Shown here piece by piece: positions 7,801 to 31,493 of a DNA stretch of 64,000 nucleotides. The translations under genes were made by a program, and so were the position numbers. This DNA comes from Bryobacterales bacterium (lineage in GTDB: Bacteria; Acidobacteriota; Terriglobia; Bryobacterales; Bryobacteraceae), in the NCBI GenBank assembly GCA_003167495.1, contig PMSX01000136.1, positions 1-64,000 on the forward strand. The letters are read 5' to 3'. The stretch's first letter is position 1; every line of letters begins with the position of its first letter. Under the pieces are notes generated by a model. The model worked only from the letters and a program-made list of their open reading frames with translations. It made no database searches and was not told the origin of the DNA.

Positions 7801-7967
7801 TCGCCGTTACAGCCTTCGCCCACGAGAGCGACCGCCAAAGATTTCTCAGCGCGGGGATGACGGACTACCTGTCGAAACCGGTTGCTTACTCGGATCTAGT
7901 GACCGTCATCGAGCGATACCGGGCTACCGCTGTCAACTTTCCTGTATTGCGAGAATTGCTGGTGTAA
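4878..7967 (+). CDS. Membrane hybrid sensor histidine kinase with two receiver domains
   Basis: This 1029-residue protein senses an extracytoplasmic signal and starts a phosphorelay. An N-terminal hydrophobic stretch is followed by a large periplasmic region (about 40-460) with repeated OB-like beta modules ([25 protein letters not shown]). A transmembrane helix lies near 468-490 ([16 protein letters not shown]). The kinase core has HisKA with the phospho-acceptor His509 ([12 protein letters not shown]) and HATPase boxes ([15 protein letters not shown]). Receiver 1 has Asp805 (IADQHMPGM) and receiver 2 has Asp946 ([11 protein letters not shown]). I prefer the ATG at 4878, with GAAGAA upstream, over an ATG at 4845. 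There is no HPt domain or output domain, so the partner must be elsewhere. Confidence 0.92.
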
Positions 7968-8039
7968 TAGCCCCGGTATTTCCGATAGTTATTAACCAGT
8001 TAGCTCTTCATTCGACTCAGGTAATCGCGCCGCGTGTTA

Positions 8040-8069
8040 CCGCCCCACAACTACCGACCTGGGGGGCGG
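8040..8069. terminator. GC hairpin between convergent genes, weak terminator candidate
   Basis: CCGCCCC at 8040-8046 pairs perfectly with GGGGCGG at 8063-8069 across a 16-base loop. It sits in the 130-base gap between the kinase gene and the convergent gyrA gene, where a bidirectional terminator would be expected. No T-run follows on either strand, so intrinsic termination is not well supported. Confidence 0.3.
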
Positions 8070-8097
8070 CGCTTCCATCTCGGATTCGGAAACGTAA

Positions 8098-10599
8098 CTA
8101 TTCAAAAGGCAGATCGCCGTTCTTCGGCTCATCGACGTCCGTCTCTGGAATTACCGATGCCGCCGCTACCATGTCGCCTTCCTCCATGCGCACCAGTCGC
8201 ACGCCTTGCGTCGATCGCCCAGCTTGCCGAATCTCGCCAGACTCGATGCGGATCATCTTGCCGTCCTTAGTGATGATCATGAGGTCGGTATTCTCCTTCA
8301 CCGAAAGTACCGCCACCACTTTGCCCACCTTCGGCGTTGTCTTCATGTTGATAACGCCTTTCCGTCCGCGCGCCGTCAGACGGTAGTCTTCGAGCGGCGT
8401 GCGCTTGCCGAACCCGTGCTCGGAAATGGAAAGAATCAAACCTTCCTTCTCAATCACTTCTAAACCCACCAGGTAGTCGCCCTCATCCAGATCCATTGCC
8501 CTTACGCCGCGTGCCTGCCGTCCCATGGCCCGAACCTCATCTTCGTTGAAACGAATGGCCATGCCTTCATGGCTGCCCAGGAAGATGTAGTTCTTGCCGT
8601 TGGTGATGGTGGCGCCCAGCAGTTCGTCGTTATCATCCAGCGCCAACGCAATAATGCCGCGCGAAAGCGGATTATCAAACTCCGTCAGTTCGCATTTCTT
8701 GATAACGCCATGCCGCGTTACCATGACAATGAACTTTTCGGCCACGAACTCCTTCACTGCCAGGAACGCCTTCACCGATTCGTCCGGCTGCAAGGCGATC
8801 AAGCCCGACACATGCTTGCCCTTGCCGGTGGTACCAGCATCGGGAATTTCATAGATCTTCAGCCAGTAAACGCGTCCCTTATTCGTGAAGATGAGCATGT
8901 AGGCGTGCGTTGACGCGATCACTAGGTGCTCCACCGCGTCTTCCGAACGCGTGCCCATGCCAATCCGGCCCTTGCCGCCGCGCGTCTGCCGCCGGTATGT
9001 ATCCACCGACGTCCGCTTCAGGTAGCCGCCGCGCGATACCGTCACCGCGACGTCTTCCATCTGCACCAGATCTTCCAGCTTGATCTCGCCCGTGTCCTCT
9101 ATGATCTGCGTGCGGCGCTCATCACCGAACTCTTTCTGTACTTCTTTGAGTTCCTTGACAATCACGTTCTTCAGTACTTTTTCCGAACCTAGAATTTCCA
9201 GGTACTCGGCGATCAGCCGCTGAATCTCGGCTAGTTCGTCCAGAATCTTCTGGCGCTCCATGCCCGTCAAACGCTGCAATTGCAATTCGATGATGGCTTG
9301 CGCTTGAATTTCCGTAAATTCGAAGGTCGTTACCAAACCTTCGCGCGCCTCTTTCGGTGTTTTCGCCGCCCGAATCAGCTTGATAATTTCATCCAGCAGA
9401 TCCAGAGCCTTCTGGAATCCCAAGAGAATGTGCTCGCGTGCGCGCGCCTTGCGCAACAGGTAATCCGTACGCCGCCGCACCACATCAACGCGGTGTTCCA
9501 GGAACCGCTTGATGACGTCAATGATGCCGAGCTCCCTTGGCTGCCCGTTCACAATCGCCAGCATGATCACGCCGAAGCTGATCTGCATTTGCGTTTGCTT
9601 ATACAGATTGTTCAGAATCACTTCGGCATTTTCGCCGCGCTTCAGTTCGAACACAATGCGCATCCCGTCGCGGTCGCTTTCATCGCGCGCGTCCGAAATG
9701 CCTTCTATTTTCTTTTCGCCTACTAGCGCCGCCACGTGTTCCAGCAGTCGCGCCTTATTCACTTGGTACGGAAGTTCCGTGACAATGATCGACTCGCGGT
9801 CCTTGCCCAGTTTTTCCATGGCTGCTTTGGCGCGTATTTTTAAACTGCCGCGGCCTCTCAAATAGTAATCGACGATTCCCTGCCGCCCCAAAATAAAGCC
9901 GCCCGTAGGAAAGTCCGGCCCAGGCACCATTTCCAGAATCTTTGCCATCGGCGTATGCGGATCGTGCAGCACCGCAATGCACGCCGTGATGAGTTCGTTC
10001 AGATTGTGTGGCGGAATATTGGTAGCCATGCCAACCGCAATGCCCGAAGAGCCATTGATCAATAGGTTCGGCACGCGCGTCGGTAGAACTTCAGGTTCTA
10101 CTTCGCTGTCATCGTAATTCGGACGGAAATCCACCGTCTCTTTGTCAATGTCTTCTAACAGCGCGCTGGCAATTTTCGAAAGCCGCGCTTCCGTATACCG
10201 CATCGCTGCCGGCGGATCGCCGTCCACCGATCCAAAGTTGCCCTGGCCATCAATCAGCGGATAGCGCATGGAAAACAACTGCGCCATGCGTACCAAAGCG
10301 TCATACACGGGTGTGTCGCCGTGCGGATGGAATTTCCCCAGAACCTCGCCAACGATCTTGGCGCACTTGCGCGTGGGCCGGTTGAAACTCAGCCCCATTT
10401 CATGCAACCCGTAAAGAATGCGCCGGTGGACCGGCTTCAGCCCGTCTCGCACATCGGGTAAAGCGCGGCCCACGATCACGCTCATCGAGTAATCGAGGTA
10501 CGAACGCTTCATCTCGTCTTCAATGTTGATCGAAATGATGTTTTTGTTGTCGCCGCCCGGCGGTAAAATCCCGCTGCTGGGTGGATCTTGTTCGGCCAA
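8098..10599 (-). CDS. gyrA: DNA gyrase subunit A
   Basis: GyrA is the DNA breakage and reunion subunit of gyrase (A2B2), which introduces negative supercoils. The 833 residues cover the whole family length. The winged-helix/tower region contains the active-site tyrosine in [11 protein letters not shown]. The quinolone-resistance region reads [17 protein letters not shown], so the position equal to E. coli Ser83 is Thr, Ala84 is Pro and Asp87 is kept. The C-terminal beta-pinwheel has the GyrA box as QTRGGKG, which argues for gyrase rather than topoisomerase IV. The start is TTG at 10599, preceded by TAGGAG seven bases away. Neither gyrB nor dnaA is in the window, so this is not the usual replication-origin context. 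Confidence 0.98.
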
Positions 10600-17948: not shown

Positions 17949-20900
17949 ATGTACTCGAGCCCGCTGAAAACACAGCCCCACGCCGCACTTTTCCTGTGGG
18001 GATTTCTCATGATTGCGGGTCTTCTCTCGGCAGTTCCAGCATGGGCAGTCGCTGGAGGCGGCCTCTCCGGCACTATCAAAGACCCCAGCGGCGCTGTAGT
18101 ACCGGCCGCACGGGTCACCCTCACCAACACGGCCCTCAAGACCGAATTCAGAACAATTTCCGACAATCATGGTGTTTATTCGTTTCCAACGCTCGCGGTC
18201 GGCCATTACGATTTACGAATCGAAGCGGTGGGATTCAAAACGCAGGAAAAGAACAATCTGACGGTTGATGCGGATGCCGCGCTCCGGGTTGATGCACTTC
18301 TCCAAGTAGGGCAAAGATCGGAAACCGTAACAGTGATCGCAACCGAGGGGACCATCGAAACCCAGCCCGACACGGTGGCGACTCATTTGGGCGAAGTCGT
18401 ATCGGCCAGGGAGATTGAGGCAGTACCTTTGAATGGCCGGAGCTATACCGATCTGCTCGCCATTCAACCAGGCGTCAGCCCAATCACTACACTCACGCCA
18501 ACGTCGGTGATCATGGCGGGAGTTACGGGGACCATTAATCCTTCGGGCGATTTAAATCCAGGCGATGTTTCGATTGACGGCCAGCGCGAGTCGGCAAACG
18601 GCTTCATGGTGAATGCTGTCGACGTACAAGAGCATATGAACGGAGGAACTTCCGTCATCCCGAACCTCGATTCCATTCAGGAATTTCGCGTTCTCACGAA
18701 CAACTTCGATCCCGAATACGGCAATTACAACGGCGGGATGATCAACGTCATTACCCGGTCCGGAAGCAACGCCTTTCACGGCGATGCTTTTGAGTTTCTG
18801 CGGAACACTGATCTGGATGCCAAAAACTATTTCGACAGCACCCGAGGCGCTTTCCGGCAAAACCAGTTCGGCGGGACCGTCGGAGGACCTATCAAACAGC
18901 AGAAATTGTTTTTCTTTACCGACTATCAGGGAACCCGCACAGTGCAGGGCATTACTTCAGCCGAAACAACCGTGCCCTCCGTCCAAGACCGTTCCGGCAA
19001 TCTCACTGACATCGCCAGTTCATTGACCGGGACTGTGAGTGGGCCTTACGTTGCCAACCTCCTCACTCAAAAGCTTGGCTACAAGGTCACGGAGGGCGAG
19101 CCTTACTATACGCCGGGATGCACCACCTCCGCAGCTTGCGTTCTGCCCAACGCTAACATTCCAACAAGTGCTTGGTCGGCTCCCGCGATCGATTTGCTGA
19201 AGTATATTCCCGATCCAAATGTCGGCTCCAATCTTTTCGCCACTTCCGCTTATCCCGAAACCGTCAGGGATGACAAAGGTTCTGGGCGGATTGACGCGAA
19301 TACCCGCTTCGGCCAAATCAACGGCTACTATTTCCTCGACAACTACCGCTTGGACAACCCATATCCAGGCGGCCAGGGTGGCGCGAGTATTCCCGGTTTT
19401 GACGCCTTGACCATAGGTCAGGCACAGATGGTTACTATCGGCGCCACCAAGACCTTGGGAGCAGCAGCCTTTAATGAATTCCACGTCGGTTTTCTGCGCA
19501 ACGCAAACGACATCGGTAAGCCGAAAGGTGGTTTAGGCGTTAGTCTGCAATCGCAAGGTTTTGTGACCGGGGTTGGCAGTCCCGGTATTGTTGTCCAAGC
19601 GCCCCAATTTGAGGGTGTAGAGAATATTGTTTTTCCTGATTTTGTAATGGGTGTTCCCATCACAAACGTTAATCAGTGGAACAATACGCTATTTCTGAGT
19701 GATACCGTTTCCAAGGTCGTTGGCGCTCACACCCTGAAATACGGCGGTCAGTTCCATACCGATCAAGTTAACGAACACCCGAACGCCACATTCAACGGAA
19801 CTTTCAACATCGACGGCACTGAAACCGGCTCGGCCTTCGCCGATTTCTTATTAGGAGTTCCAAGCAATTTCACTCAGACGTCGGGCCAGAGTTTTTATTT
19901 GCGCAACCGCTATGGCGGAGCTTTCGCGGAAGACAGCTGGCATGCACGCAGTAACCTAACGATAAATCTAGGTCTTCGTTGGGATTTAATCATGCCTTGG
20001 TGGGAGAAATATAATCAGATTCAGACCATTGTTCCCGGCGAGCAATCGGTTCTCTACCCCAACGCCATGAATGGATTGGTGGTACCCGGCGACCCCGGAA
20101 TTCCTTCGACGCTGTCGCCCTCGAAGTATCGCAATTTTGCACCCAGGATCGGAGCCGCCTACTCACCGGACTTCAAGAATGGATTTTTGCGAGCTCTGTT
20201 GGGCGACCAGGGAAAGAGCAGCATTCGAGCCAGCTACGGAATCTTCTATACGGCGTTCCCGGGCCTGACAGCGGGAATCATGTACGGAATTCCCCCCTAC
20301 GGTTATAACTATCTGAGTCCCCAACCGCCGCTCCTCTCGACTCCTTTCATCAGCGCGGCGAACGGTGTCGAGAACACCGATCCGTTTCCGCTGAATTTCC
20401 CGCCGCATAACGTGTCGGTAAAAAATCCGAATACCGGCTTCGATTTTGCAGCCGTCACGCCCGTCAGTGCCGATCCTTATTTCTACTACCGCAATGACGT
20501 GCCCTACACCGAAAACTACATGTTCTCCATTCAGCGGCAAATCGAAAAGAACACGCTGCTAACCCTCAGCTATGTGGGAAATGAAGGGCATCATCTGCTT
20601 GTCTTGGTTCCAGAGAACATCGGCAATCCAGCGCTCTGTCTCAGTCTCAGCCAACCTAGCGACGTTGCGCCCGGAACGTCCACCTGTGGACCTTTCGGCG
20701 AAGATGCTCCGTATATATCGGCATCGGGCAAGACGTACCAGGGCACACGAGTCGGCTTAGGATCAAACTTCGGTTCGATAACTGCTCAAAAATCGGTTGG
20801 CAATTCGAACTACAACGCTCTGGAGGTCAACCTCCGATTCAACGCTGGAACGCGAGGCACGCTCCTCGTGGGCTATACCTACTCCAAGTCGATCGATCAG

Positions 20901-21521
20901 GCGTCGAATCTCGGCGAGCAGACCAACCCCTTCAACGCCAGCCTCACCCGGGTTATCTCCTCTTGGGACATGACTCACAACTTCGTGGCCACCTATACCT
21001 ACGCCTTGCCCTTTGATCGCTACTTTCGGAGCAATCGCCTTACACAGGGTTGGAGCTTGTCCGGAACAACCCGCTTTAGCACTGGATTTCCTGTGACATT
21101 GTTTGACGATTCGGACCGCTCGCTTCTAGGGACGTTAGGCAATGGAGTCAACAATGAATTGCTGGATACGCCGGAGTATTCCGGAGGCCCGCTCGATATC
21201 AACACAAATCCCCGCAACGGCAAACCCGAATTCAATACCAGCGCCTTTTCCCATGAAGCACTTGGACAGCTGGGTAATGTGGCGCGCCGCTTCTTCCATG
21301 GACCCGGCATTGAAAACTTCGATATGGAAATCAGCAAAACGGTGCGCCTGACGGAAGCGAAATCGTTCGATATCCGGCTTGAGGCGTTCAACGTATTCAA
21401 CCACGCCCAGTTTTACGGGCCGGCCTCTGTCGATGGCGAAGTGAACGATTCTAATTTTGGACAGGTTGTGAGCGCCGCTGCGCCAAGATTAGTTCAAGTG
21501 GCGGCGAAGTTCCATTTTTGA
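17949..21521 (+). CDS. Oar-like TonB-dependent outer-membrane receptor
   Basis: The 1190-residue protein is predicted to sit in the outer membrane and import a TonB-dependent substrate. A long signal peptide (ends AVPAWAVAGG) leads to a carboxypeptidase-regulatory beta-sandwich (LSGTIKDPSGAVVPAARVTL, about 36-120). A plug domain follows (AVPLNGRSYTDLLAIQPGVS; FRVLTNNFDPEYGNYNGGMI), then a large beta barrel of about 800 residues ending in VQVAAKFHF, with the terminal Phe typical of BAM recognition. No obvious TonB box is seen. It is a close paralogue of the receptor at 58420 (shared YYTPGC cysteine insert, NPRNGKPEFNTS). Its neighbours do not reveal its substrate. Confidence 0.93.
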   Translation: MYSSPLKTQPHAALFLWGFLMIAGLLSAVPAWAVAGGGLSGTIKDPSGAVVPAARVTLTNTALKTEFRTISDNHGVYSFPTLAVGHYDLRIEAVGFKTQEKNNLTVDADAALRVDALLQVGQRSETVTVIATEGTIETQPDTVATHLGEVVSAREIEAVPLNGRSYTDLLAIQPGVSPITTLTPTSVIMAGVTGTINPSGDLNPGDVSIDGQRESANGFMVNAVDVQEHMNGGTSVIPNLDSIQEFRVLTNNFDPEYGNYNGGMINVITRSGSNAFHGDAFEFLRNTDLDAKNYFDSTRGAFRQNQFGGTVGGPIKQQKLFFFTDYQGTRTVQGITSAETTVPSVQDRSGNLTDIASSLTGTVSGPYVANLLTQKLGYKVTEGEPYYTPGCTTSAACVLPNANIPTSAWSAPAIDLLKYIPDPNVGSNLFATSAYPETVRDDKGSGRIDANTRFGQINGYYFLDNYRLDNPYPGGQGGASIPGFDALTIGQAQMVTIGATKTLGAAAFNEFHVGFLRNANDIGKPKGGLGVSLQSQGFVTGVGSPGIVVQAPQFEGVENIVFPDFVMGVPITNVNQWNNTLFLSDTVSKVVGAHTLKYGGQFHTDQVNEHPNATFNGTFNIDGTETGSAFADFLLGVPSNFTQTSGQSFYLRNRYGGAFAEDSWHARSNLTINLGLRWDLIMPWWEKYNQIQTIVPGEQSVLYPNAMNGLVVPGDPGIPSTLSPSKYRNFAPRIGAAYSPDFKNGFLRALLGDQGKSSIRASYGIFYTAFPGLTAGIMYGIPPYGYNYLSPQPPLLSTPFISAANGVENTDPFPLNFPPHNVSVKNPNTGFDFAAVTPVSADPYFYYRNDVPYTENYMFSIQRQIEKNTLLTLSYVGNEGHHLLVLVPENIGNPALCLSLSQPSDVAPGTSTCGPFGEDAPYISASGKTYQGTRVGLGSNFGSITAQKSVGNSNYNALEVNLRFNAGTRGTLLVGYTYSKSIDQASNLGEQTNPFNASLTRVISSWDMTHNFVATYTYALPFDRYFRSNRLTQGWSLSGTTRFSTGFPVTLFDDSDRSLLGTLGNGVNNELLDTPEYSGGPLDINTNPRNGKPEFNTSAFSHEALGQLGNVARRFFHGPGIENFDMEISKTVRLTEAKSFDIRLEAFNVFNHAQFYGPASVDGEVNDSNFGQVVSAAAPRLVQVAAKFHF

Positions 21522-22696: not shown

Positions 22697-23545
22697 TTGC
22701 CGCCTCAAAGCGAAAAGCTCAACGAACCCAAGGGTTTAGGGCATGGCCGCCGTAACGAAACAAAGTTGAGCGGCCACATTATTATCGGTGAGTTGATCCG
22801 CAACATGGAACTGGGCCGGTTCGACATGAACTACTCGGTTTTGCTGCCTTGCATCTTCACGGTGTATTTGAACCCGCAGGATCACACAACCCTAAGCAGC
22901 GTATTCAATCTAGTCCTTGATGACGCTCGGCGCGCACTGCGTGACCGCGTAGCGGAGATGAATACTCCGCCGAAGTTGCTCGGTTTGCCGCGCAAGGGCA
23001 AAGTTGCGAAAGAGCACAAAATAGCATGCCAGGATTGGTACATTGAATTCCTGCCGGATGCCGAAGTGCCGGTTGGCGATATCGAAATCCACTCCGAGCT
23101 CAACGAAACGGCGGAGCCGGGCTACCGCGGTACCAAGACTACGCTCATCGGGCGGGAGCCTACCGCGGCCCCTCGCGCCGATCATGCCACCACCCAGCGA
23201 GTGGCTTCTACGCGTCGCGTCGACACAATTTATGCGGACATAAAATATCAGGACGATTCCGGTCCGCAGGCGTATCCTCTCACCCAGAATCGTGTGCGCA
23301 TCGGGCGCGGCGGCGAAGATCAGCCAATGGATGTGGCCCTGTATACAAATGACGAAGTCTCGCGTGAACATGCGGTCATCCGGCGCGATCCAGCCACTGG
23401 CGCGTTCTTCATCACAGACATGAGTACCAATGGGACTACTCTGAACGGCAAGAAGCTGCAGAAGGGAGTAGAGCAGCCGCTGCCGGAACGCGCCGACATC
23501 GGTTTGGGCGGGGTCCTCAAGCTGGAGTTTGAGGTGCGGAAATGA
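22697..23545 (+). CDS. FHA-domain phosphothreonine-binding protein (FhaA-like)
   Basis: The 282-residue protein has an N-terminal FhaA-type (DUF3662-like) domain (about 25-150) and a C-terminal FHA domain that binds phosphothreonine peptides. FHA signature residues are present: RIGRGG, SREHAVIRR and STNGTTLNG. In actinobacteria FhaA links Ser/Thr kinase signalling to peptidoglycan synthesis. Here it opens an operon with phosphatase, kinase and SEDS-PBP genes, supporting the same role. TTG at 22697 is six bases after AAGGGAGT; GTG at 22691 abuts that site and is the alternative. The stop overlaps the next ATG (ATGA). Confidence 0.88.
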   Translation: MPPQSEKLNEPKGLGHGRRNETKLSGHIIIGELIRNMELGRFDMNYSVLLPCIFTVYLNPQDHTTLSSVFNLVLDDARRALRDRVAEMNTPPKLLGLPRKGKVAKEHKIACQDWYIEFLPDAEVPVGDIEIHSELNETAEPGYRGTKTTLIGREPTAAPRADHATTQRVASTRRVDTIYADIKYQDDSGPQAYPLTQNRVRIGRGGEDQPMDVALYTNDEVSREHAVIRRDPATGAFFITDMSTNGTTLNGKKLQKGVEQPLPERADIGLGGVLKLEFEVRK

Positions 23546-23640
23546 AGTTCCTCTACTTCGCTCATATTCCTTTTGTTTTACTGTTTCTGTTGTTCACCCT
23601 TGGGCTTTTGATTTGGAGCAGGATAGGGCAAAGGCGCTAA
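23542..23640 (+). CDS. 32-residue single-helix membrane microprotein
   Basis: This short frame starts with an ATGA overlap on the fha stop codon and ends with TAA immediately before the phosphatase ATG, so it fills the gap between the two genes exactly. The product starts MKFLYFAHIPF, has a hydrophobic helix (VLLFLLFTLGLLIW) and ends with the basic tail SRIGQRR, giving a predicted single span with a positive cytoplasmic end. It resembles small regulatory membrane proteins, but I know no family for it. The perfect packing and amphipathic composition argue that it is translated. A role tethering FHA or phosphatase proteins at the membrane is a guess. Confidence 0.7.
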   Translation: MKFLYFAHIPFVLLFLLFTLGLLIWSRIGQRR

Positions 23641-25350
23641 ATGCAGATGGCGACGGTATGGCGTCCTGGCTCTGCCACGGATCCCGGCTTGGCGCGCAGC
23701 ATCAACGAAGATCGCGTCTTCGTGGATGATGCGCGTGGTGTGTTCATGGTGGTGGACGGCTTAGGCGGTCATGCCGCTGGGGAAACAGCCGCCGAAACCG
23801 CCGTCGAAGTGATTGAGAAAGAATTGCGCGCCGCCCGTGTCATAGATGAAGCGTGCATCCGCCAGGCCATCACGGCCGCGAATAACGAGATCTATGCGTT
23901 GTCGGAGGCGAACCCGGCATGGCGTGGCATGGCTTGCGTCCTCACCTTGGCCGTTGCTTCCGGCGATCAATTTCTGATCGGTCACGTAGGAGATTCGCGA
24001 CTCTATCTCTTTTGGAATGGCAAGCTGCGCAAGATGACTCTCGACCATTCGCCCGTCGGAGAACTGGAAGATGCCGGCGAAATCACAGAAGAGCAAGCGA
24101 TGCAACATCCGCGGCGTAACGAAGTGTTTCGCGACGTAGGTTCTTACCCGCATTCTCCCGATGATCCGCGCTTTATAGAGATTAGCCAGTTTGCGTTTCG
24201 CCGCGATGCGGCGTTGTTGTTATGCAGCGATGGCTTGAGCGATTTGGTGAAGTCGGCTGAAATGACACGCATTCTGGAGAAGTACGATGGCGATGCCGCG
24301 CGCATTGCGCAACTGTTGGTAGAAGCCGCCAATACCGCGGGGGGACGCGATAACATTAGCGTTGTCTTCGTTCCAGGGCCGGATTTTTTGGGCGCTGAAT
24401 CGGCCACTCTGGCTGAAGGGCGTAGCCGTCATGCCACCACGCGTATGCGCACGGGCAAGACAGGTACGCGCGCTTTCTTTCGCAACCTTTTGCTGCTCGC
24501 TATCGGCATGTTGATTGGCGTCGGCATTTGGCTTGGTTACGATCGCTATGCGGCCAAGCCCGCGCCTCCCGTTGTCGCGCCAGCCGCGCCTCACACTCCG
24601 AAAGACATAGAAGTGGAGGCCAATAATCCCGCCGGCATTAGCAACGCCTTGGCCGCCGCCTTGCCGGGAGACACCATTCTGGTGCCGGCCGGCCAATATC
24701 TAGGGCCGCTCGTATTGAAGGAGCGCGTCAATATTGTGGCTCAGTCGCCGGGTCGTGTCATTGTGCTTAGCGACCCCGCGTCGGCCACGGACGCCGGCAT
24801 TGCTGTTGTGGCGCGCGGTGTCAAGGAAGCGCGCTTGAAAGGTGTGCACCTCGAAGGCAATGAAACGCACCCGTTGCGCACCGGGTTATTGATTGCCGAT
24901 TCATCGATTGAGGCGGAAGATATTGAAGTCTCTGGGGCCGTGGATTGCGGAGTGAAAATTGAAGGCGATTCCCATCCACTCGTCATCGCCGGCAATTTCC
25001 ACTCCAATAGCGGGCCGGGCGTGATTGTGCAGGGCCAGAGTACTCCGCGCCTGATCGACAATCGGATTACCGACAATGGACGTGTGGCGGGAGCCCCGCA
25101 TGCCGGTATTGAGATCGGCAACGAGGCACAACCTACTTTGATTAAAAACGAAATTCTGCATAATGGTTTGGCGGCTATGTTTCCGCCTGCGCTGGATGAG
25201 GAGATTCGCGCAAAAAACACCGTGGATAGCGGAGCGGCTGGCAAACCTCCCGCCAAGCCGCGCCCTCCCGCTCACACTACGCAGCCAACCCAACCGGAAG
25301 TGAAACCGAACGCGATAGGCCATCCATCCAAGCCTGTCATTGAAGCATAA
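23641..25350 (+). CDS. PP2C-type protein phosphatase with transmembrane helix and beta-helix ectodomain
   Basis: The 569-residue protein removes phosphate from Ser/Thr residues. The cytoplasmic PP2C domain (1-245) carries the metal-binding motifs: NEDR at 22-25, DGLGGH at 39-44, GDSR at 117-120, CSDGLSD at 195-201 and GRDN at 235-238. A transmembrane helix lies at 281-300 (RNLLLLAIGMLIGVGIWLGY). Outside the membrane is a right-handed parallel beta-helix of the NosD/DUF1565 type, about 325-520 (NNPAGISNALAAALPGDTIL; GPGVIVQGQSTPRLIDNRIT), and a Pro-rich tail. Typical bacterial PstP phosphatases lack such an ectodomain; beta-helices often bind glycans, so it may sense the cell wall. Confidence 0.93.
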   Translation: MQMATVWRPGSATDPGLARSINEDRVFVDDARGVFMVVDGLGGHAAGETAAETAVEVIEKELRAARVIDEACIRQAITAANNEIYALSEANPAWRGMACVLTLAVASGDQFLIGHVGDSRLYLFWNGKLRKMTLDHSPVGELEDAGEITEEQAMQHPRRNEVFRDVGSYPHSPDDPRFIEISQFAFRRDAALLLCSDGLSDLVKSAEMTRILEKYDGDAARIAQLLVEAANTAGGRDNISVVFVPGPDFLGAESATLAEGRSRHATTRMRTGKTGTRAFFRNLLLLAIGMLIGVGIWLGYDRYAAKPAPPVVAPAAPHTPKDIEVEANNPAGISNALAAALPGDTILVPAGQYLGPLVLKERVNIVAQSPGRVIVLSDPASATDAGIAVVARGVKEARLKGVHLEGNETHPLRTGLLIADSSIEAEDIEVSGAVDCGVKIEGDSHPLVIAGNFHSNSGPGVIVQGQSTPRLIDNRITDNGRVAGAPHAGIEIGNEAQPTLIKNEILHNGLAAMFPPALDEEIRAKNTVDSGAAGKPPAKPRPPAHTTQPTQPEVKPNAIGHPSKPVIEA

Positions 25351-25355
25351 GCCCA

Positions 25356-27368
25356 ATGGAAAGCCCTACTGTCCAAGCCGAGAAATTCGGGAAATATGAA
25401 ATCATCCGTAAGCTGAGCCGCAGCATGACGGATGTATATCTGGCCAAGGATGTTTGGACCAACCAAAAAATCGTCCTGAAACGAATTGAACAATCGCGCG
25501 ATGAATTCACGCGCCTTGCCATTGAAGCGGAGACCCGCGGGGCCCAGATCCAAAAGCAGCTTCACCAGATTGACCCGCGCATTTTGGCGATTTACGATTG
25601 TGGCGATCTGGGTAATTTCTTTTTTGTCGCGATGGAATATTGCGAGGGTAAGAGCCTCGCGGAAATTCAGAAAACAGACGGGCGTTTGGAACCCCGCCGC
25701 GCCGCTCGCTACGCGGCCGAAATTTGTAGCCAGCTACGCACGCTGCATTCGTTCGTGACCGATTACGCGGGCCGCCGCACCGCCGTGATTCACGGCGACA
25801 TCAAGCCTTCCAATATTCAGATCGGCTTGAAAGACGACGTGCGGCTGCTGGATTTTGGCATTTCGAAGAACATTACCGCCACCCAGAATTTGACGCGTCA
25901 CAACATGGGGAGCCCGAGCTATTGTTCGCCTGAGCGGCTCAGTAGGGGTCAAGTGGATGTGAACGCCGACCTTTGGGCGCTGGGAGTAACACTTTTTGAG
26001 ATGCTGGCCGGCACGCCTCCCTATCAGGCGCAAGATACCCGCCAGCTTGAAAACATTATTCAGTCAAAACGCCCCCCGCGCGCTCTGCCCGAAGATTGTC
26101 CCGCTCAATTGAAAGCGATTGTTTCGAAAGCGCTGGCGGGCGATCTGGAGCTGCGTTACCATTCCGCGCAGGAATTTGAAAGCGATCTGCGTGCCTATCT
26201 TGCTAATCAGCCCGTGACCGCCATGCGCGACCGCGTCTCTTGGGATTCGAATGCGACGATTGATAAGTCCACGCCTCCTCCCAAGGCGCCTCCCATCGCG
26301 CCTCCCGTGGCAGCACCTTTCAAACCCACAGTGCGGGTAGAGCCGGGTGCCGCGCCTAGGGCTCGCAGCAATCCCACTCGACTCACTACCTCGCAAATGT
26401 TAGCCGCTCGGCCTGGAGTTCCCGCACCCCATCGCTGGTCCTTCATGCAGCCCGGTAGTACGAACCTGATCATTGCCTTAGTCGCGGGTGTGCTGGCGGG
26501 CTTGATGGTGTTCGTTCCGCTGGTTTATTACTTGCGTGTTTACAACGAAGTAACCCCGCTACGCACTGTGCGCGATTATGCCCACGATCCGGCTTCCACT
26601 ATTGATTCTGATTGGCAGCTATATCAAGACCTGAAGAAGCGCACCCAGTTTATGGGAGTTCTTTCACCTCTGAATCTGGCCGAAGGACGCGTGCATACGA
26701 ATCTGGTGAACGCCGCCGACACCATTATTGATGGCTATCGAACTAGCGCTATCACGACCCCAGCCGAGTTTGATTGGGCGCGCGCGCGCAAATGCCTGCG
26801 TCTTGCCCTGCAGATTGATCCCAACGACAACAAAGTGAAGGGGAAGCTGGCGCTCACCGACGGTTATGTGAGCCTGATTCAAGTGGAGGCCAGTCCCGCG
26901 AAAGTGCGCAACAAACCCGATCCGCGGCTAAAGGCTTCGTTGGAAGGGTTCCGCCAAGCTGCGTCTTATCTTTCGGCAACGCCAGACCCGCACCTCGGCT
27001 TGGCTCGGCTCAACGTGTATGGATACCACAACATCGGAGAAGCGGATGCCGAATTTCAGCAAGCGGAACAGCTCGGTTTTCATCTGGGTCCGCGCGAGCA
27101 GGTCGAGCGGGCCGATGGTTACATGTTCCGTTCCCAATACAATCTGGCGCAAGCGCGCCGCGTAGCTCCTAGAAATAGAGACGCAGCCGAGCGCTGGTTG
27201 CAAATGTGTCGCGACGATATTGAAAACGCTCGCAAACTATATGAACCGCTGGTAGGCTTTTCAAACGTGAGTACCAACCTTGAGCAGCTTGATCAGATCA
27301 AGCTCGAGCAGGCGTCTATTGAAACGCAATCAGGCGCGGGGAATGCGCCGGCAATGGGCAACCCATAA
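25356..27368 (+). CDS. Membrane serine/threonine protein kinase with degenerate glycine loop
   Basis: The 670-residue protein has a kinase domain at 13-282, a Pro/Ala-rich linker, a transmembrane helix at 370-393 and an external C-terminal part. Lys42 (IVLKRI), His-Gly-Asp 146-148 in place of HRD, Lys150, Asn153, DFG 166-168 and SPE 191-193 are present. The loop that should be GxGxxG reads LSRSMTDVYLA, with no glycines, so ATP binding may be altered. The ectodomain lacks PASTA repeats; it looks helical and TPR-like (FDWARARKCLRLALQIDPND, EADAEFQQAEQLGFHLGP). The ATG is six bases after the phosphatase stop, and the stop overlaps the next start (TAATG). Confidence 0.92.
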   Translation: MESPTVQAEKFGKYEIIRKLSRSMTDVYLAKDVWTNQKIVLKRIEQSRDEFTRLAIEAETRGAQIQKQLHQIDPRILAIYDCGDLGNFFFVAMEYCEGKSLAEIQKTDGRLEPRRAARYAAEICSQLRTLHSFVTDYAGRRTAVIHGDIKPSNIQIGLKDDVRLLDFGISKNITATQNLTRHNMGSPSYCSPERLSRGQVDVNADLWALGVTLFEMLAGTPPYQAQDTRQLENIIQSKRPPRALPEDCPAQLKAIVSKALAGDLELRYHSAQEFESDLRAYLANQPVTAMRDRVSWDSNATIDKSTPPPKAPPIAPPVAAPFKPTVRVEPGAAPRARSNPTRLTTSQMLAARPGVPAPHRWSFMQPGSTNLIIALVAGVLAGLMVFVPLVYYLRVYNEVTPLRTVRDYAHDPASTIDSDWQLYQDLKKRTQFMGVLSPLNLAEGRVHTNLVNAADTIIDGYRTSAITTPAEFDWARARKCLRLALQIDPNDNKVKGKLALTDGYVSLIQVEASPAKVRNKPDPRLKASLEGFRQAASYLSATPDPHLGLARLNVYGYHNIGEADAEFQQAEQLGFHLGPREQVERADGYMFRSQYNLAQARRVAPRNRDAAERWLQMCRDDIENARKLYEPLVGFSNVSTNLEQLDQIKLEQASIETQSGAGNAPAMGNP

Positions 27369-30300
27369 TGGCCGTTACCAGGAGTTGGGAATCTTCTACT
27401 ACGAACCGCCTTGATTTTAAGCGCGAGGCGAAGTCTCCGGAACGCCAGCGCGAGTTCTGGCCATTGTTGGGCGCGAGCATTCTCGTGCTCTGCGGCTTGG
27501 CGCTCGTTTTTACCGCCAAAACGCAAGATTTCCCGGCTGAGCAACAACGCCTCGATTCGGGCGATCTGGTGGACATCAACTCCGTTAAGGGCGCCGGTGA
27601 CCTTTCTAATGCCCTTTTCGTCTTTACCGACCCTGGCGAGCGCGCCTATGCAGCCGAGCGCGTGTACACTTTCTTACTGAAGAATCGTCCGCTTCCGAAT
27701 GCGGGTTCGCTTTCGCGCATCCGCATTCACCAGGCCGATACGCTGACCGATTCGCGCGCGCGCCGCATTTGGGAAAGGGAAACCGCATCTGACAAGACGC
27801 CTCCCAACAGCGTGGCGTTGTTTCCCGTTTCGAAGGTGAAACCTTTTCTCGTCGTGCGCACTCCCAAAGAGTTTTTGCAAACCTATGTGATCTGGGGCGT
27901 GGCCTACCTCTTGGCCTTTTGGGTGGTTCACATTGCCTGGCGTTTGCGCCGCTTTCGTGGCGACCCAACCATTTTGCCCGCATTGCACCTCTTGAGTGGC
28001 ATGGGGTTCATTCTGATGGTCAGTCTGCGTGATCCCCTGCGCGACACGCTCGAGTTTCGGAAGTTCGCTTGGGGGAGTGTTTGTGGCTGCATTCTTTTGC
28101 TGTTACCGTTGTTACGCGTATTTCAGTATCGCGTGTTCGCGCGTTGGGTGTATACGCCATTGTTTGCCGCCGTTGCTTTGTTTGGCGCTTTGCTCGTGTT
28201 GGGGTCGGGGCCTACCGGCAGCGATGCGAAGGTGAACCTCGGACCGTTCCAACCGGTAGAGCTCATCAAAATTCTGATTGTCCTTTTCCTGGCTGGGTAT
28301 TTTGCAGCGAATTGGGAGCGGCTGCGCGATTTGCATCAAAAAGCATTTGTGCCGAGTTCCCTGCGCTGGCTGCGGATACCACGGATTGACCACACCCTGC
28401 CTGTGATGTTGGGCGTGAGTGTCGGACTCATCCTGTTTTTCGTCCTAAAAGATATGGGCCCTGCGCTGGTCATGGGTTTCGTTTTCATGACTATGTTCGC
28501 CGTGGCGCGCGACCGCGCTGGCTTGCCTTTGCTTGGCATCGCCGCCTTGATCGTCGGCGTAGCGTTAGGCGTTCACTTCGGTGCGCCGCACACGGTTGTC
28601 GAGCGCGTCGCCATGTGGCTCTCGCCTTGGGATAACAATGTTCACGGTGGCGACCAACTGGCGCACTCGCTCTGGGCGTTTGCTACGGGTGGTCCTATTG
28701 GATCGGGTCCCGGTTGGGGTGATCCTAGCTTGATTCCGGCGGGTCACACTGACTTAGTTCTCGCCTCCATTGCAGAAGAGTGGGGTCTGCCAGGAGTTAT
28801 TAGTGTGTGCCTTCTCTTTGCCATGTTGGTGTTCTCCGCGTTTCGCATTGCTCTCAAAGCGCCGGATGAATACGCAACCTTTTTGGGAGTTGGACTCGGA
28901 GCTTTGATCTCGTTCGAAATGCTCCTGATCTCGGGAGGTGCGCTGGGCGCGATTCCATTGTCTGGCGTTGTTTCGCCGTTTCTCAGCTCAGGGAACACGG
29001 CGATGCTTTCGAACTATCTGATCTTCGCCGTTTTGCTGGGAATTTCGAATCAGTCAGTCCAGCCCTTGGTTGCGGTAACGCGTGAAGGGAATATGCCTAC
29101 TGCTCAACCTGCCCCAAGCCTCGAGCCCTCGTTCCGCACACCTGTGCGCGTAGTGAGCTGGTCGTTGGGATTGTGCGCGTTGGCTTTGCTTTGTCGCGCA
29201 ACCTATATACAGGTCTTTCATGACCGCGAATTACTGGCTAAAGATACCTTGGTCTACACCCTCGATGGCGTCAAGCGTCCGCAACACAATCCGCGCTTGA
29301 ACCTGCTGGCTGCGGAGATTCCGCGCGGCAATATCTATGACCGGAACGGTGTGCTGCTGGCCACCAGTTCTTGGGCTGAAGTGGAGAAACGCCGCGCGGA
29401 TTATGAAAAGCTCGGCGTTTCCATTGATTCCCTGGCGCGTCTCGACAGCCGTCTCTATCCGTTTGGAGCCGCTACCGCGCATTTGTTGGGCGATTTGCGC
29501 ACTGGTGAGAAATTCCACGCCACTAACTCTTCACTCATTGAGCACGATTCCAATTCGCGGCTGCAAGGTTACACCGATTATGAAGATCTAGCCGGCATCG
29601 TACGGGTTCGCCATCAACGGGACAATCCGCTTTTGCAGAACCTGCTAAGCCGCGACCGCGATGTGCATTCCACTATCGACGTTCGTCTGCAACTCAAGAT
29701 GAGTGAGATTCTCCGCGCCGGCTTGCAGGCCTCCGGCAAGAAAGGCGCGCTCGTTGTTATGGATGCCGAAACGGGAGATGTTCTGGCGCTGGCCAGCTAT
29801 CCCGCGCCTCCCGCCAACGGACCCGGAACTCCCGACGAGCTATTGGATCGCGCGCGTTACGGAGAATATCCTCCCGGTTCTACCTTCAAGCTCGTTACGG
29901 CCATCGCCGCTCTGCGGCTGAATCCCAAATCGACCGACAACGTCTACAAATGCAGCGCCCTGGGAGACGGGCGCGTCGGGACTGTTATCTCCGGCTGGCG
30001 ACGCCCGATTCGCGACGACGTTGGCGACCATGCGCACGGCGCACTCAATATGGCCAACGCCATCACAGTCTCCTGCAACGCCTATTTCGCCCAACTGGGC
30101 GTTTTTGGTGTCGGGCCGCAAGCGCTGCATGATACGTCGGAGATGCTCGGCATTCAGACAGGTACAGTGGCGAAGGTGAAAGAGGCCCTGCCGTTTTGCT
30201 CCTACGGGCAGGGAACTGTAGTGGCAACACCGTTCCAGATGGCGCGTGTCGCCGCCACCATTGCGGCGGGCGGACAAATGCCGGAAGGACGATGGGTGAC

Positions 30301-30712
30301 TGACCCAAGTAATTCTCGCACTGCCCCGCCTAACCTCATTCTTGACGCTGATTCCGCCGCCTTCTTGCAGCGTGCGATGCGATCGGTGGTCACCAATGGT
30401 ACTGCGCGGTCGTCTATGGCCGGCATCAAATATGAAGTGGCCGGCAAGACCGGTACCGCTCAATTGGATGAAGGCGAGCCGCACTCCTGGTTCGCCGGAT
30501 ACGCTCCGTATAGTGCGCCACGTTCTACTAACCCAGGTCCTGCTAAGGCAGACCAGCCGTTGGCCTTCGCCGTCGTCGTAGAACATGGCGGCTACGGCGC
30601 CAAGTTCGCGGCGCCCATCGCTCGCCAACTCGTGGAAGCGGCCGGTCAGCTCAACTTACTCGCTCCCGTAAATTCAGAGGTGAATGCAAATGGCAGTGTC
30701 CAACATCATTGA
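27368..30712 (+). CDS. SEDS glycosyltransferase (RodA/FtsW) fused to a class B penicillin-binding protein
   Basis: This 1114-residue protein joins both halves of a peptidoglycan synthase. A helix at 31-49 is followed by an extracytoplasmic insert (about 51-168) of no known family. The SEDS polymerase (about 170-580) contains the conserved Asp362 in KDMGPALVMG and the loop GSGPGWGDPSLIPAGHTD. A further helix (about 595-615) anchors the class B PBP: pedestal IPRGNIYDRNGVLLATS and transpeptidase motifs Ser838-Lys841 (PGSTFKL), Ser902-Cys-Asn904 and Lys1027-Thr-Gly1029. All key residues are kept, so both activities look functional. RodA/PBP2 and FtsW/FtsI pairs are normally separate polypeptides. 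It starts with a one-base overlap on the kinase gene. Confidence 0.94.
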   Translation: MAVTRSWESSTTNRLDFKREAKSPERQREFWPLLGASILVLCGLALVFTAKTQDFPAEQQRLDSGDLVDINSVKGAGDLSNALFVFTDPGERAYAAERVYTFLLKNRPLPNAGSLSRIRIHQADTLTDSRARRIWERETASDKTPPNSVALFPVSKVKPFLVVRTPKEFLQTYVIWGVAYLLAFWVVHIAWRLRRFRGDPTILPALHLLSGMGFILMVSLRDPLRDTLEFRKFAWGSVCGCILLLLPLLRVFQYRVFARWVYTPLFAAVALFGALLVLGSGPTGSDAKVNLGPFQPVELIKILIVLFLAGYFAANWERLRDLHQKAFVPSSLRWLRIPRIDHTLPVMLGVSVGLILFFVLKDMGPALVMGFVFMTMFAVARDRAGLPLLGIAALIVGVALGVHFGAPHTVVERVAMWLSPWDNNVHGGDQLAHSLWAFATGGPIGSGPGWGDPSLIPAGHTDLVLASIAEEWGLPGVISVCLLFAMLVFSAFRIALKAPDEYATFLGVGLGALISFEMLLISGGALGAIPLSGVVSPFLSSGNTAMLSNYLIFAVLLGISNQSVQPLVAVTREGNMPTAQPAPSLEPSFRTPVRVVSWSLGLCALALLCRATYIQVFHDRELLAKDTLVYTLDGVKRPQHNPRLNLLAAEIPRGNIYDRNGVLLATSSWAEVEKRRADYEKLGVSIDSLARLDSRLYPFGAATAHLLGDLRTGEKFHATNSSLIEHDSNSRLQGYTDYEDLAGIVRVRHQRDNPLLQNLLSRDRDVHSTIDVRLQLKMSEILRAGLQASGKKGALVVMDAETGDVLALASYPAPPANGPGTPDELLDRARYGEYPPGSTFKLVTAIAALRLNPKSTDNVYKCSALGDGRVGTVISGWRRPIRDDVGDHAHGALNMANAITVSCNAYFAQLGVFGVGPQALHDTSEMLGIQTGTVAKVKEALPFCSYGQGTVVATPFQMARVAATIAAGGQMPEGRWVTDPSNSRTAPPNLILDADSAAFLQRAMRSVVTNGTARSSMAGIKYEVAGKTGTAQLDEGEPHSWFAGYAPYSAPRSTNPGPAKADQPLAFAVVVEHGGYGAKFAAPIARQLVEAAGQLNLLAPVNSEVNANGSVQHH

Positions 30713-31493
30713 AAGACTAGGCCGGGCGATTTTCGAAGCGCCCTTCGGCACGCATAAGATCGCCCAAGATGCGCCCGAACTCGCTGAGATCCGCATTGCC
30801 GTGCTCGATGCCGTCAAAGCCAAAAGTCATCAGGCCAGTGGCCGCAATGTGTTCCCCTACAATCTGGTGCGCATCAATTTATTGGGTGTGCCTCACGAAC
30901 AAGCGACCGTGTTTCATGGCGACTTCCTGGCGAAATACTTCGCCGAAGAGTTGCGTTCCGGACTCGCGCGTTCGAACTACCGCTTTCCCGACGATCTCTT
31001 CGTGGAAATCACCACTACTCCAAAGCTCCCTGAACCGAATCAGCAGTGGCTCACCGTGGATACACTCATCACCGAGAGAGTCGCCGCACAGTCTGTCACA
31101 CCCATCCATCCACCAGCGCGTTTGACGGTGGAAGCCGGGTCCACAAATCAGGCAGAGCTCATCGTCAACGGGCCGCGCGTCAACATCGGCCGCACCGTGG
31201 AAGTTTATCGCGAGGGATCGGGCCTGGCGCGCCGCAACGATTTGGCATTCGGCGAACAGGACGAAGTGAGCCGCAGCGTCTCGCGCGAACATGCGCACAT
31301 TCTCTATTCACAGGAAACCGGCGAATGCCGTTTGGTGAACGATCGCGTTTATAAAGGTGAGGCCAATTGCGGCACCTACATCATTCGCAACGGTTTCGCC
31401 ATGGCGGTTCACCGCAACGCCCGCGGCACAGTGCTGGCATCGGGAGACCAAATCCAACTCGGCCAAGCGTTACTGCGCTTCAAAGTAGACTGA
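30690..31493 (+). CDS. Second FHA-domain protein (FhaA-like architecture)
   Basis: The 267-residue protein repeats the architecture of the first operon gene: an FhaA-type N-terminal domain (FPYNLVRINLLGVPHEQATV) and a C-terminal FHA domain with VNIGR, VSREHAHILY and NCGTYIIRNG. The asparagine-rich loop differs from classical FHA (no STNGT; it has EANCGT), so binding preference may differ. ATG at 30690 follows AGAGGTG by seven bases; an ATG two codons earlier is too close to that site. It overlaps the 3' end of the SEDS-PBP gene by 23 bases, which implies coupling. It ends the operon; the next gene is convergent, four bases away. Confidence 0.87.
   Translation: MAVSNIIERLGRAIFEAPFGTHKIAQDAPELAEIRIAVLDAVKAKSHQASGRNVFPYNLVRINLLGVPHEQATVFHGDFLAKYFAEELRSGLARSNYRFPDDLFVEITTTPKLPEPNQQWLTVDTLITERVAAQSVTPIHPPARLTVEAGSTNQAELIVNGPRVNIGRTVEVYREGSGLARRNDLAFGEQDEVSRSVSREHAHILYSQETGECRLVNDRVYKGEANCGTYIIRNGFAMAVHRNARGTVLASGDQIQLGQALLRFKVD

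Follow-up and report, generated by a model that had tools for sequence, protein, structure and literature searches.

Within a stretch of 64,000 nucleotides from a Bryobacterales bacterium of the phylum Acidobacteriota (assembly GCA_003167495.1, contig PMSX01000136.1; the whole stretch is called the window below), six open reading frames (ORFs) on the forward strand at positions 22697–31493 are packed as one tight unit. This operon probably encodes a dedicated peptidoglycan synthase, the third of its host, in which a SEDS polymerase and a class B penicillin-binding protein (PBP) are one chain, together with a kinase, phosphatase and FHA circuit of its own. As such, it would be a remodelled Gram-negative relative of the cell-wall cluster of Actinobacteria and clostridia. 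This reading is built on the gene content and order, the fusion, the intact catalytic residues, the kinship and a conserved microprotein, all of which are seen in the sequences themselves. The genes are as follows:

22697..23545, + strand: FHA1, with a TTG start at 22697 and GTG 22691 as a possible alternative
23542..23640, + strand: microprotein of 32 residues with a single transmembrane (TM) segment, overlapping FHA1 by 4 nucleotides (ATGA)
23641..25350, + strand: PP2C phosphatase, with a gap of 0 nucleotides after the microprotein
25356..27368, + strand: Ser/Thr kinase, with a gap of 5 nucleotides after the phosphatase
27368..30712, + strand: SEDS-PBP, 1114 residues in one chain, overlapping the kinase by 1 nucleotide
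30684..31493, + strand: FHA2, overlapping SEDS-PBP by 29 nucleotides, with its start at ATG 30684 or 30690

A previous, sequence-only reading of this DNA had placed six genes within a few bases of each other, and all of these ORFs are indeed found there. The content that it proposed (FHA, microprotein, PP2C, kinase, SEDS-PBP, FHA) is borne out, for the domain-bearing proteins by Pfam and profile comparison. Scans of the operon for promoters and terminators gave chance level only. The source assembly has a size of 9.4 Mb, with 93.9% completeness and 7.6% contamination, and carries the operon on contig C117; the nearest named record is a metagenome-assembled genome of a peat-bog Bryobacterales (L034), at 87% identity.

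The synthase is the central protein of the operon. FTSW_RODA_SPOVE (152 bits) and Transpeptidase (129 bits) are both matched by Pfam in the same ORF, which agrees with the proposal that polymerase and transpeptidase are one chain. The SEDS Asp and the PBP motifs SxxK, SxN (residues 902–904) and KTG (residues 1027–1029) are invariant in 20 fusion sequences. On account of its HTD motif, we take Asp462 to be the equivalent of the catalytic Asp262 of Escherichia coli RodA. The role of the latter residue is treated in PMC6207328 and PMC10449877. Besides the fusion, the host encodes the two SEDS proteins L001 and L002, and its own SEDS/PBP entries L185 and L186 are placed with FtsW/FtsI and RodA/PBP2 in the joined tree discussed below. 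A separate RodA and FtsW are thus kept, and the fusion is therefore an additional, third SEDS synthase. The following parts of the synthase and of the phosphatase are of importance here:

27368..27385, + strand: N-terminal island M-A-[VI]-T-[RK]-S of SEDS-PBP, conserved, and cytoplasmic according to the predicted topology
27524..27874, + strand: N-terminal periplasmic domain of SEDS-PBP between TM1 and TM2, aligned also in Spirosoma
28751..28753, + strand: SEDS Asp462 in HTDLVL, invariant in 20 sequences
29879..29881, + strand: PBP active-site Ser838 (SxxK), invariant in 20 sequences
24631..25200 (approximate), + strand: beta-helix ectodomain of the phosphatase, from Pfam/NCBIfam beta-helix matches

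Judging from the hydrophobic segments, the chain would start inside the cell and run through a TM helix, the periplasmic domain, a second TM helix, the SEDS bundle, a cytoplasmic linker and a further TM helix to a periplasmic PBP. For the N-terminal periplasmic domain, no Pfam match over the cut-off was obtained in 7 loci, the best PDB sequence match has an E of 0.5, and the predicted local distance difference test (pLDDT) of the model is 58–86 per block. The idea of a ComEA/GspK-like helix-hairpin-helix domain at this location found no support from Pfam or PDB sequences and was dropped. The full-length model is poor (mean pLDDT 55.6) and was left unused for the SEDS part; in a fold search with the whole chain, the best 50 entries are all PBPs. 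In the conserved N-terminal island, residue 4 is Thr in 16 and Ser in 2 of the 20 sequences, and residues 7–24 are variable. FHA domains read phosphothreonine. Because of this and of the conserved island, Thr4 is a candidate phosphorylation site, and possibly a switch.

Profile comparison assigns both FHA proteins to the FhaA type. FHA1 (Pfam FHA, 52 bits) consists of a degenerate FhaA N-terminal domain and a C-terminal FHA domain, and its comparison with the actinobacterial/clostridial FhaA profile gives 99.6% (E 2e-23, 17% identity), the alignment spanning the N-terminal domain together with a portion of the FHA domain. For FHA2 the corresponding values are 98.9%, E 1.2e-17 and 15% identity, over most of its length; its FHA domain, with 19.0 bits, is just under the Pfam cut-off of 20.7, and its identity is supported by this profile comparison. 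The FhaA_N domain is above the cut-off in a relative (L120, 31.8 bits) and in a distant relative (L114, 30.5 bits). In the PDB, FHA1 also weakly matches, at E 0.4, subunit S of a photosynthetic reaction centre (9h19).

The phosphatase matches PP2C_2 with 53.9 bits, over the cut-off, and Beta_helix with 39 bits in Pfam, and among the NCBIfam models Stp1 scores highest, with 204 bits, short of its cut-off of 230. It has one hydrophobic segment (by eye) followed by a right-handed beta-helix ectodomain, and Asp24, Asp39, Asp197 and Asp237, presumably the metal-binding residues, are invariant in 14 sequences. The beta-helix of the window is matched in 12 of the 15 subfamily loci with a PP2C. The phosphatase of L076 gives no such match, yet aligns along the beta-helix region, and those of L114 and L115 gave no match to the window beta-helix. 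An ectodomain on the phosphatase had been proposed as glycan-binding-like: its extracytoplasmic beta-helix is supported by Pfam and NCBIfam, while the glycan-binding part was a guess from the fold.

The kinase (Pkinase, 135 bits in Pfam) has one TM helix and keeps the VAIK Lys, the Asp of a non-RD HGD motif, the Asn and the DFG. No PASTA repeat was found in it by Pfam, as had been predicted, and the only PASTA match in the host genome is on a 766-residue PBP of the FtsI group. In the structural model the kinase ectodomain is all-helical, with helices over residues 413–660 and a pLDDT of 80–95 for most blocks. A fold search with this model returned kinase domains first, with PknB on top, and did not inform on the ectodomain.

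The microprotein is real. An ORF of 25–55 residues with a strong hydrophobic segment, starting between −4 and +8 nucleotides of the FHA1 stop, is found in 19 of 21 loci, among them Spirosoma, and in all 19 a start lies at most 5 nucleotides from that stop. The TM criterion was fixed after a first look at these loci; the same test after the other gene ends gave 0/79 (PP2C 0/20, kinase 0/21, SEDS-PBP 0/19, FHA2 0/19). When the rearranged locus L079, which has no TM peptide, is added, the count becomes 19 of 22. In L122 the microprotein is missing and the PP2C is lost too, and in L078, where FHA1 is cut off, a TM peptide lies ahead of the PP2C. Between the window and its nearest relative, the differences per site in the microprotein are 0.10 at nonsynonymous (pN) versus 0.53 at synonymous sites (pS), and for three close pairs (window–L034, L036–L123 and L076–L116) they are 0.10–0.13 versus 0.39–0.66. 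The distant pairs give 0.29/0.63 (L120–L121), 0.19/0.98 (window–L036) and 0.20/1.10 (window–L123, saturated); the pair L076–L077 (0.68/0.68) was discarded, being misaligned by one codon. In the gene table of the Spirosoma plasmid, the sole annotated relative in this analysis, no gene is listed for the microprotein, this table being incomplete by design.

The operon is a real unit with a conserved gene order, beyond what chance would give. The order FHA1-PP2C-kinase-SEDS/PBP-FHA2 is present in 17 of the 19 acidobacterial loci of the fusion subfamily that are seen in full (window included), the exceptions being L079, which is rearranged, and L122, without PP2C. This count leaves out seven loci cut by contig ends (L034, L037, L042, L078, L084, L116 and L119), in which the visible genes agree with the order, and the neighbourhoods in the same-genus fusion genomes G003, G005, G009, G013, G014 and G015 lie outside it. 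The conservation among relatives that the sequence-only reading anticipated thus exists, and it reaches beyond the genus. Two more distant fusions are arranged differently: L114 has the order FhaA-like, PP2C, SEDS-PBP, kinase, and in L115 a kinase is followed by PP2C and SEDS-PBP and these by a TPR protein, with unclassified genes in between.

A search with SEDS-PBP detects the fusion, at least partially, in 14 of 17 genomes of the same genus (the host included); the three genomes without a match are 79%, 73% and 93% complete. It is present in 3 of the 19 genomes of the family outside the genus, one of which (G017) has two copies, and absent from all 24 genomes that represent other families of its order and class. 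A profile search finds the subfamily in 10 of 396 genomes of the phylum, plus the two more distant fusions (G118 and G400). An FHA2 homologue is present in 22 of the 396, and all 10 genomes with the subfamily fusion are among these 22 (hypergeometric 2.8e-14, with kinship ignored); G118 and G400 are outside them.

Confinement of the arrangement to Acidobacteriota does not hold, since the operon, patchy within the phylum, is also borne by a 137-kb plasmid of Spirosoma oryzicola, of the phylum Bacteroidota (NZ_CP089545; L188, 1508–12064). It is important to note that Actinobacteria and Bacteroidota were sampled through records of a plasmid collection only. The plasmid has FHA, PP2C, kinase, kinase, a SEDS-PBP of 1323 residues and FHA, and thus shares with the window both FHA genes, the TM peptide, the PP2C, kinases and the fused synthase. 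Unlike the window, it has two kinases, with HRD loops, and an inserted carboxypeptidase-regulatory-like stretch (below the cut-off); its PP2C has a similarly placed ectodomain, without a beta-helix match. The Spirosoma fusion has an alignable N-terminal domain, consisting of a TM helix and a periplasmic part, and falls in the same tree group on a long branch flagged by the tree program. A plasmid search with this protein, at E up to 1e-20, gave no further record. Downstream of the plasmid operon lies a hypothetical gene, followed by genes for a response regulator and a sensor histidine kinase.

Another option considered is that the module is an easily lost or moved one, whose synthase repairs the envelope conditionally, in response to wall or outer-membrane damage under stress or predation. 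This possibility is compatible with the circuit proposed here, from which it differs in when the synthase acts. The patchy distribution, the two copies in G017 and the plasmid copy close to a two-component system speak for it. However, an at least partial fusion in 14 of 17 same-genus genomes suggests steady use in that genus, and we consider this option possible but rather unlikely.

We have also examined the kinship of the synthase with known SEDS and PBP proteins. The acidobacterial fusion subfamily groups together (96/94 in the SEDS tree, 100/99 in the PBP tree and 78/99 in the joined tree), and in the joined tree, adding L114, L115 and Spirosoma gives a group with 100/99. A second group (98/98) holds the cluster proteins of actinobacteria and clostridia, and RodA/PBP2 with FtsW/FtsI form a third (100/99). 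All three trees are unrooted and do not show a nesting of the window's group within the cluster group; the SEDS and PBP trees leave out the near-duplicates L006, L007, L009 and L010, and the joined tree also L150, L159, L161, L175, L176 and L179–L181. In profile scores, the SEDS proteins of the clostridial clusters reach 198–260 bits (172 for the true fusion L163), compared to 96 and 92 for the host's own FtsW and RodA.

These scores, the kinship of both FHA proteins with FhaA, and the canonical order in L114 lead us to read the operon as a remodelled descendant or sister of the actinobacterial/clostridial cluster, and not as the independent arrangement that the sequence-only reading had supposed. 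In that alternative, the common modules FHA, PP2C, kinase, SEDS and PBP would have been joined separately in Acidobacteriota. The unrooted joined tree, being a three-way split in which the acidobacterial/Spirosoma group lies beside the actinobacterial/clostridial group and not within it, is in line with this alternative, although the tree alone is insufficient to decide on independent invention. The kinase position and the ectodomains, which are unlike those of the known clusters, and the failure to detect FhaA_N in the host genome at E 0.001 point in the same direction. However, FhaA_N is not a common module, since Corynebacterium is the single control genome, of 14, with a match to it, and L114 combines the canonical order with a fusion. 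Separate assembly is thus quite improbable.

The operon had also been equated in content with the actinobacterial fhaA/fhaB/pstP/rodA/pbpA/pknB cluster. This cluster, with pknA as a second kinase gene (fhaA-fhaB-pstP-rodA-pbpA-pknA-pknB), is represented here by Tsukamurella (L187) and Actinomyces (L190). FhaA, PP2C, SEDS, PBP and kinase are indeed shared, with an FhaA-type gene first and SEDS followed by PBP, whereas a full FhaB and a second kinase are missing and there are two FhaA-type genes, the second of them at the operon end. In the window, moreover, SEDS and PBP are fused with an added periplasmic domain, the single kinase stands ahead of the SEDS and has no PASTA repeats, the phosphatase carries a beta-helix, and a TM microprotein occupies the position of FhaB. 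Put differently, the operon has FhaA, PP2C and a SEDS followed by a class B PBP outside the RodA/PBP2 and FtsW/FtsI groups; a TM-anchored FhaB-type protein before the phosphatase, a PASTA kinase and a kinase after the PBP are absent. The housekeeping pairs RodA-PBP2 and FtsW-FtsI likewise combine a SEDS polymerase with a class B PBP, and differ in lying apart in the trees; in the joined tree, the window synthase is outside the RodA/PBP2 group of the elongasome.

Outside the fusion subfamily, the nearest SEDS and PBP by score belong to the clostridial FHA-FHA-PP2C-SEDS-PBP-kinase cluster (L148–L164). The clostridial search gave matches in 131 of 249 genomes, and FhaA, PP2C, SEDS, PBP and kinase occur together in 8 of 17 loci examined; in the two whose FhaA was checked, FhaA_N is clear. 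Unlike in the window, SEDS and PBP are separate (except in L163), the PP2C has about 230–250 residues and no ectodomain, and the kinase comes last. Clostridial open frames of about 830–1058 residues were considered as fusions, but the 17 loci read have separate genes, with one ORF in L163 only.

Natural SEDS-PBP fusions have been described (PMC10449877), and besides the loci discussed so far, SEDS and class B PBP are in one ORF, like in the window, in Lachnospiraceae (L040/L041), in L163, where the fusion (7510–10032) is a separate one within a clostridial PP2C-synthase-kinase cluster, and on linear Rhodococcus plasmids, where the fusions are lone (L189, 6740–9565; L193, 6278–9118). In the joined tree, L040/L041 and L163 are placed with the cluster proteins of Actinobacteria and clostridia, and L189/L193 with RodA/PBP2, several of these rows being long. 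No kinase, phosphatase or FHA neighbours were seen around L040 (by eye), or around L189 and L193, whose gene tables are incomplete. Because the fusions sit in separate tree positions, the SEDS-PBP fusion has probably arisen several times.

It is quite improbable that the synthase has taken over from the main elongation enzyme, as a RodA/PBP2 equivalent, or moonlights in its place. In favour of this, growth, cell length and wall thickness are linked to the cluster in mycobacteria (PMC6554272); against it, the host has two more SEDS proteins placed in the FtsW/FtsI and RodA/PBP2 groups and most relatives are without the cluster.

We return to the dedicated synthase with its own circuit, for which we infer each signalling step, as well as the activity of the synthase, from sequence. 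The kinase would read the state of the envelope via its periplasmic helical domain, and phosphorylate its own Thr residues as well as those in cytoplasmic parts of the synthase, with Thr4 as the best candidate, or in a factor of the lipid II supply. Bound to these phosphothreonines at the membrane, the two FhaA-type proteins would then bring about the assembly or the switching of the synthase. The beta-helix PP2C would reset the circuit, and the TM microprotein encoded next to it would be its likely partner in the membrane. Two published results speak for this reading: in vitro activity and a largely restored rod shape have been observed with a synthetic RodA-PBP2 fusion (PMC6207328), and knock-down of the pstP operon in Mycobacterium smegmatis disturbs cell wall and growth (PMC6554272).

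At the position of the microprotein, actinobacteria and clostridia have FhaB or an equivalent gene, whose product consists of an N-terminal TM segment of about 30 residues followed by an FHA domain (4 actinobacterial and 8 clostridial loci, by eye), with the FHA gene of Monoglobus (L194) lacking the TM anchor. The microprotein may thus be an FhaB reduced to its membrane anchor, the 30-residue TM segments being too short to prove such a kinship. One can speculate, as a tentative and rather doubtful extension, that the microprotein of 27–51 residues is an FhaB anchor kept as a separate regulatory subunit of a complex of phosphatase and synthase, and that Thr4 is a phospho-switch read by the two FhaA-type proteins, in a compact signalling machine for Gram-negative peptidoglycan that has spread across phyla.

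A number of observations weigh against the proposed circuit. Because of its patchy distribution, the cluster is dispensable in most genomes. The fusion is missing from 12 of the 22 genomes with an FHA2 homologue, and in the surroundings of this homologue in 9 of the 12, no other gene of the operon set was matched. FhaA_N in FHA1 has 15.6 bits, under the cut-off of 25, in addition to the missing match in the host genome mentioned above, and FHA1 and FHA2 align with each other over the FHA domain only. The Gly-rich loop is degenerate in the kinases of the window's group, and the kinases of L074, L076, L077 and L116, from other families, have no catalytic-loop Asn; their loops read HADLKPGH or HNDLKPAH, and these kinases are possibly atypical or weak. 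The phosphatases of L090 and L125 lack a beta-helix match, that of L039 stops before the beta-helix, and L122 has no PP2C. Residue 4 of the synthase is Val or Ile in L074 and L076, and Thr4 is absent in Spirosoma. Finally, the microprotein is missing in L091 despite the presence of a PP2C, and also in L079 and L114.

Some further features were seen along the way. Upstream of the operon, at 17949–21521 of the window, lies an ORF of 1190 residues that is TonB-dependent-receptor-like with a carboxypeptidase-regulatory-like start (by eye). The rearranged cluster L079 (2486–15031) has three kinases around SEDS-PBP, each weakly like the window kinase, and two of them are extended at the C-terminus by several hundred residues. 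In L162 (8846–10552), a clostridial SEDS carries an N-terminal TM-FHA module in one frame.

Kinase control of peptidoglycan synthesis has been studied mostly in Gram-positives, through PASTA kinases. The cluster itself is described for Actinobacteria and a subset of Firmicutes (PMC6554272), and no earlier description of it in Acidobacteria was found in the open-licence literature. The operon thus belongs to a known kind of cell-wall control cluster, of which the fused Gram-negative arrangement is a variant, and SEDS-PBP fusions as such are already in print. The finding would mean that a related circuit operates in Gram-negative phyla with other sensor domains, that the fusion may weld polymerase and crosslinker together at a fixed 1:1 ratio, and that the conserved TM microprotein offers a small, testable component of the system.

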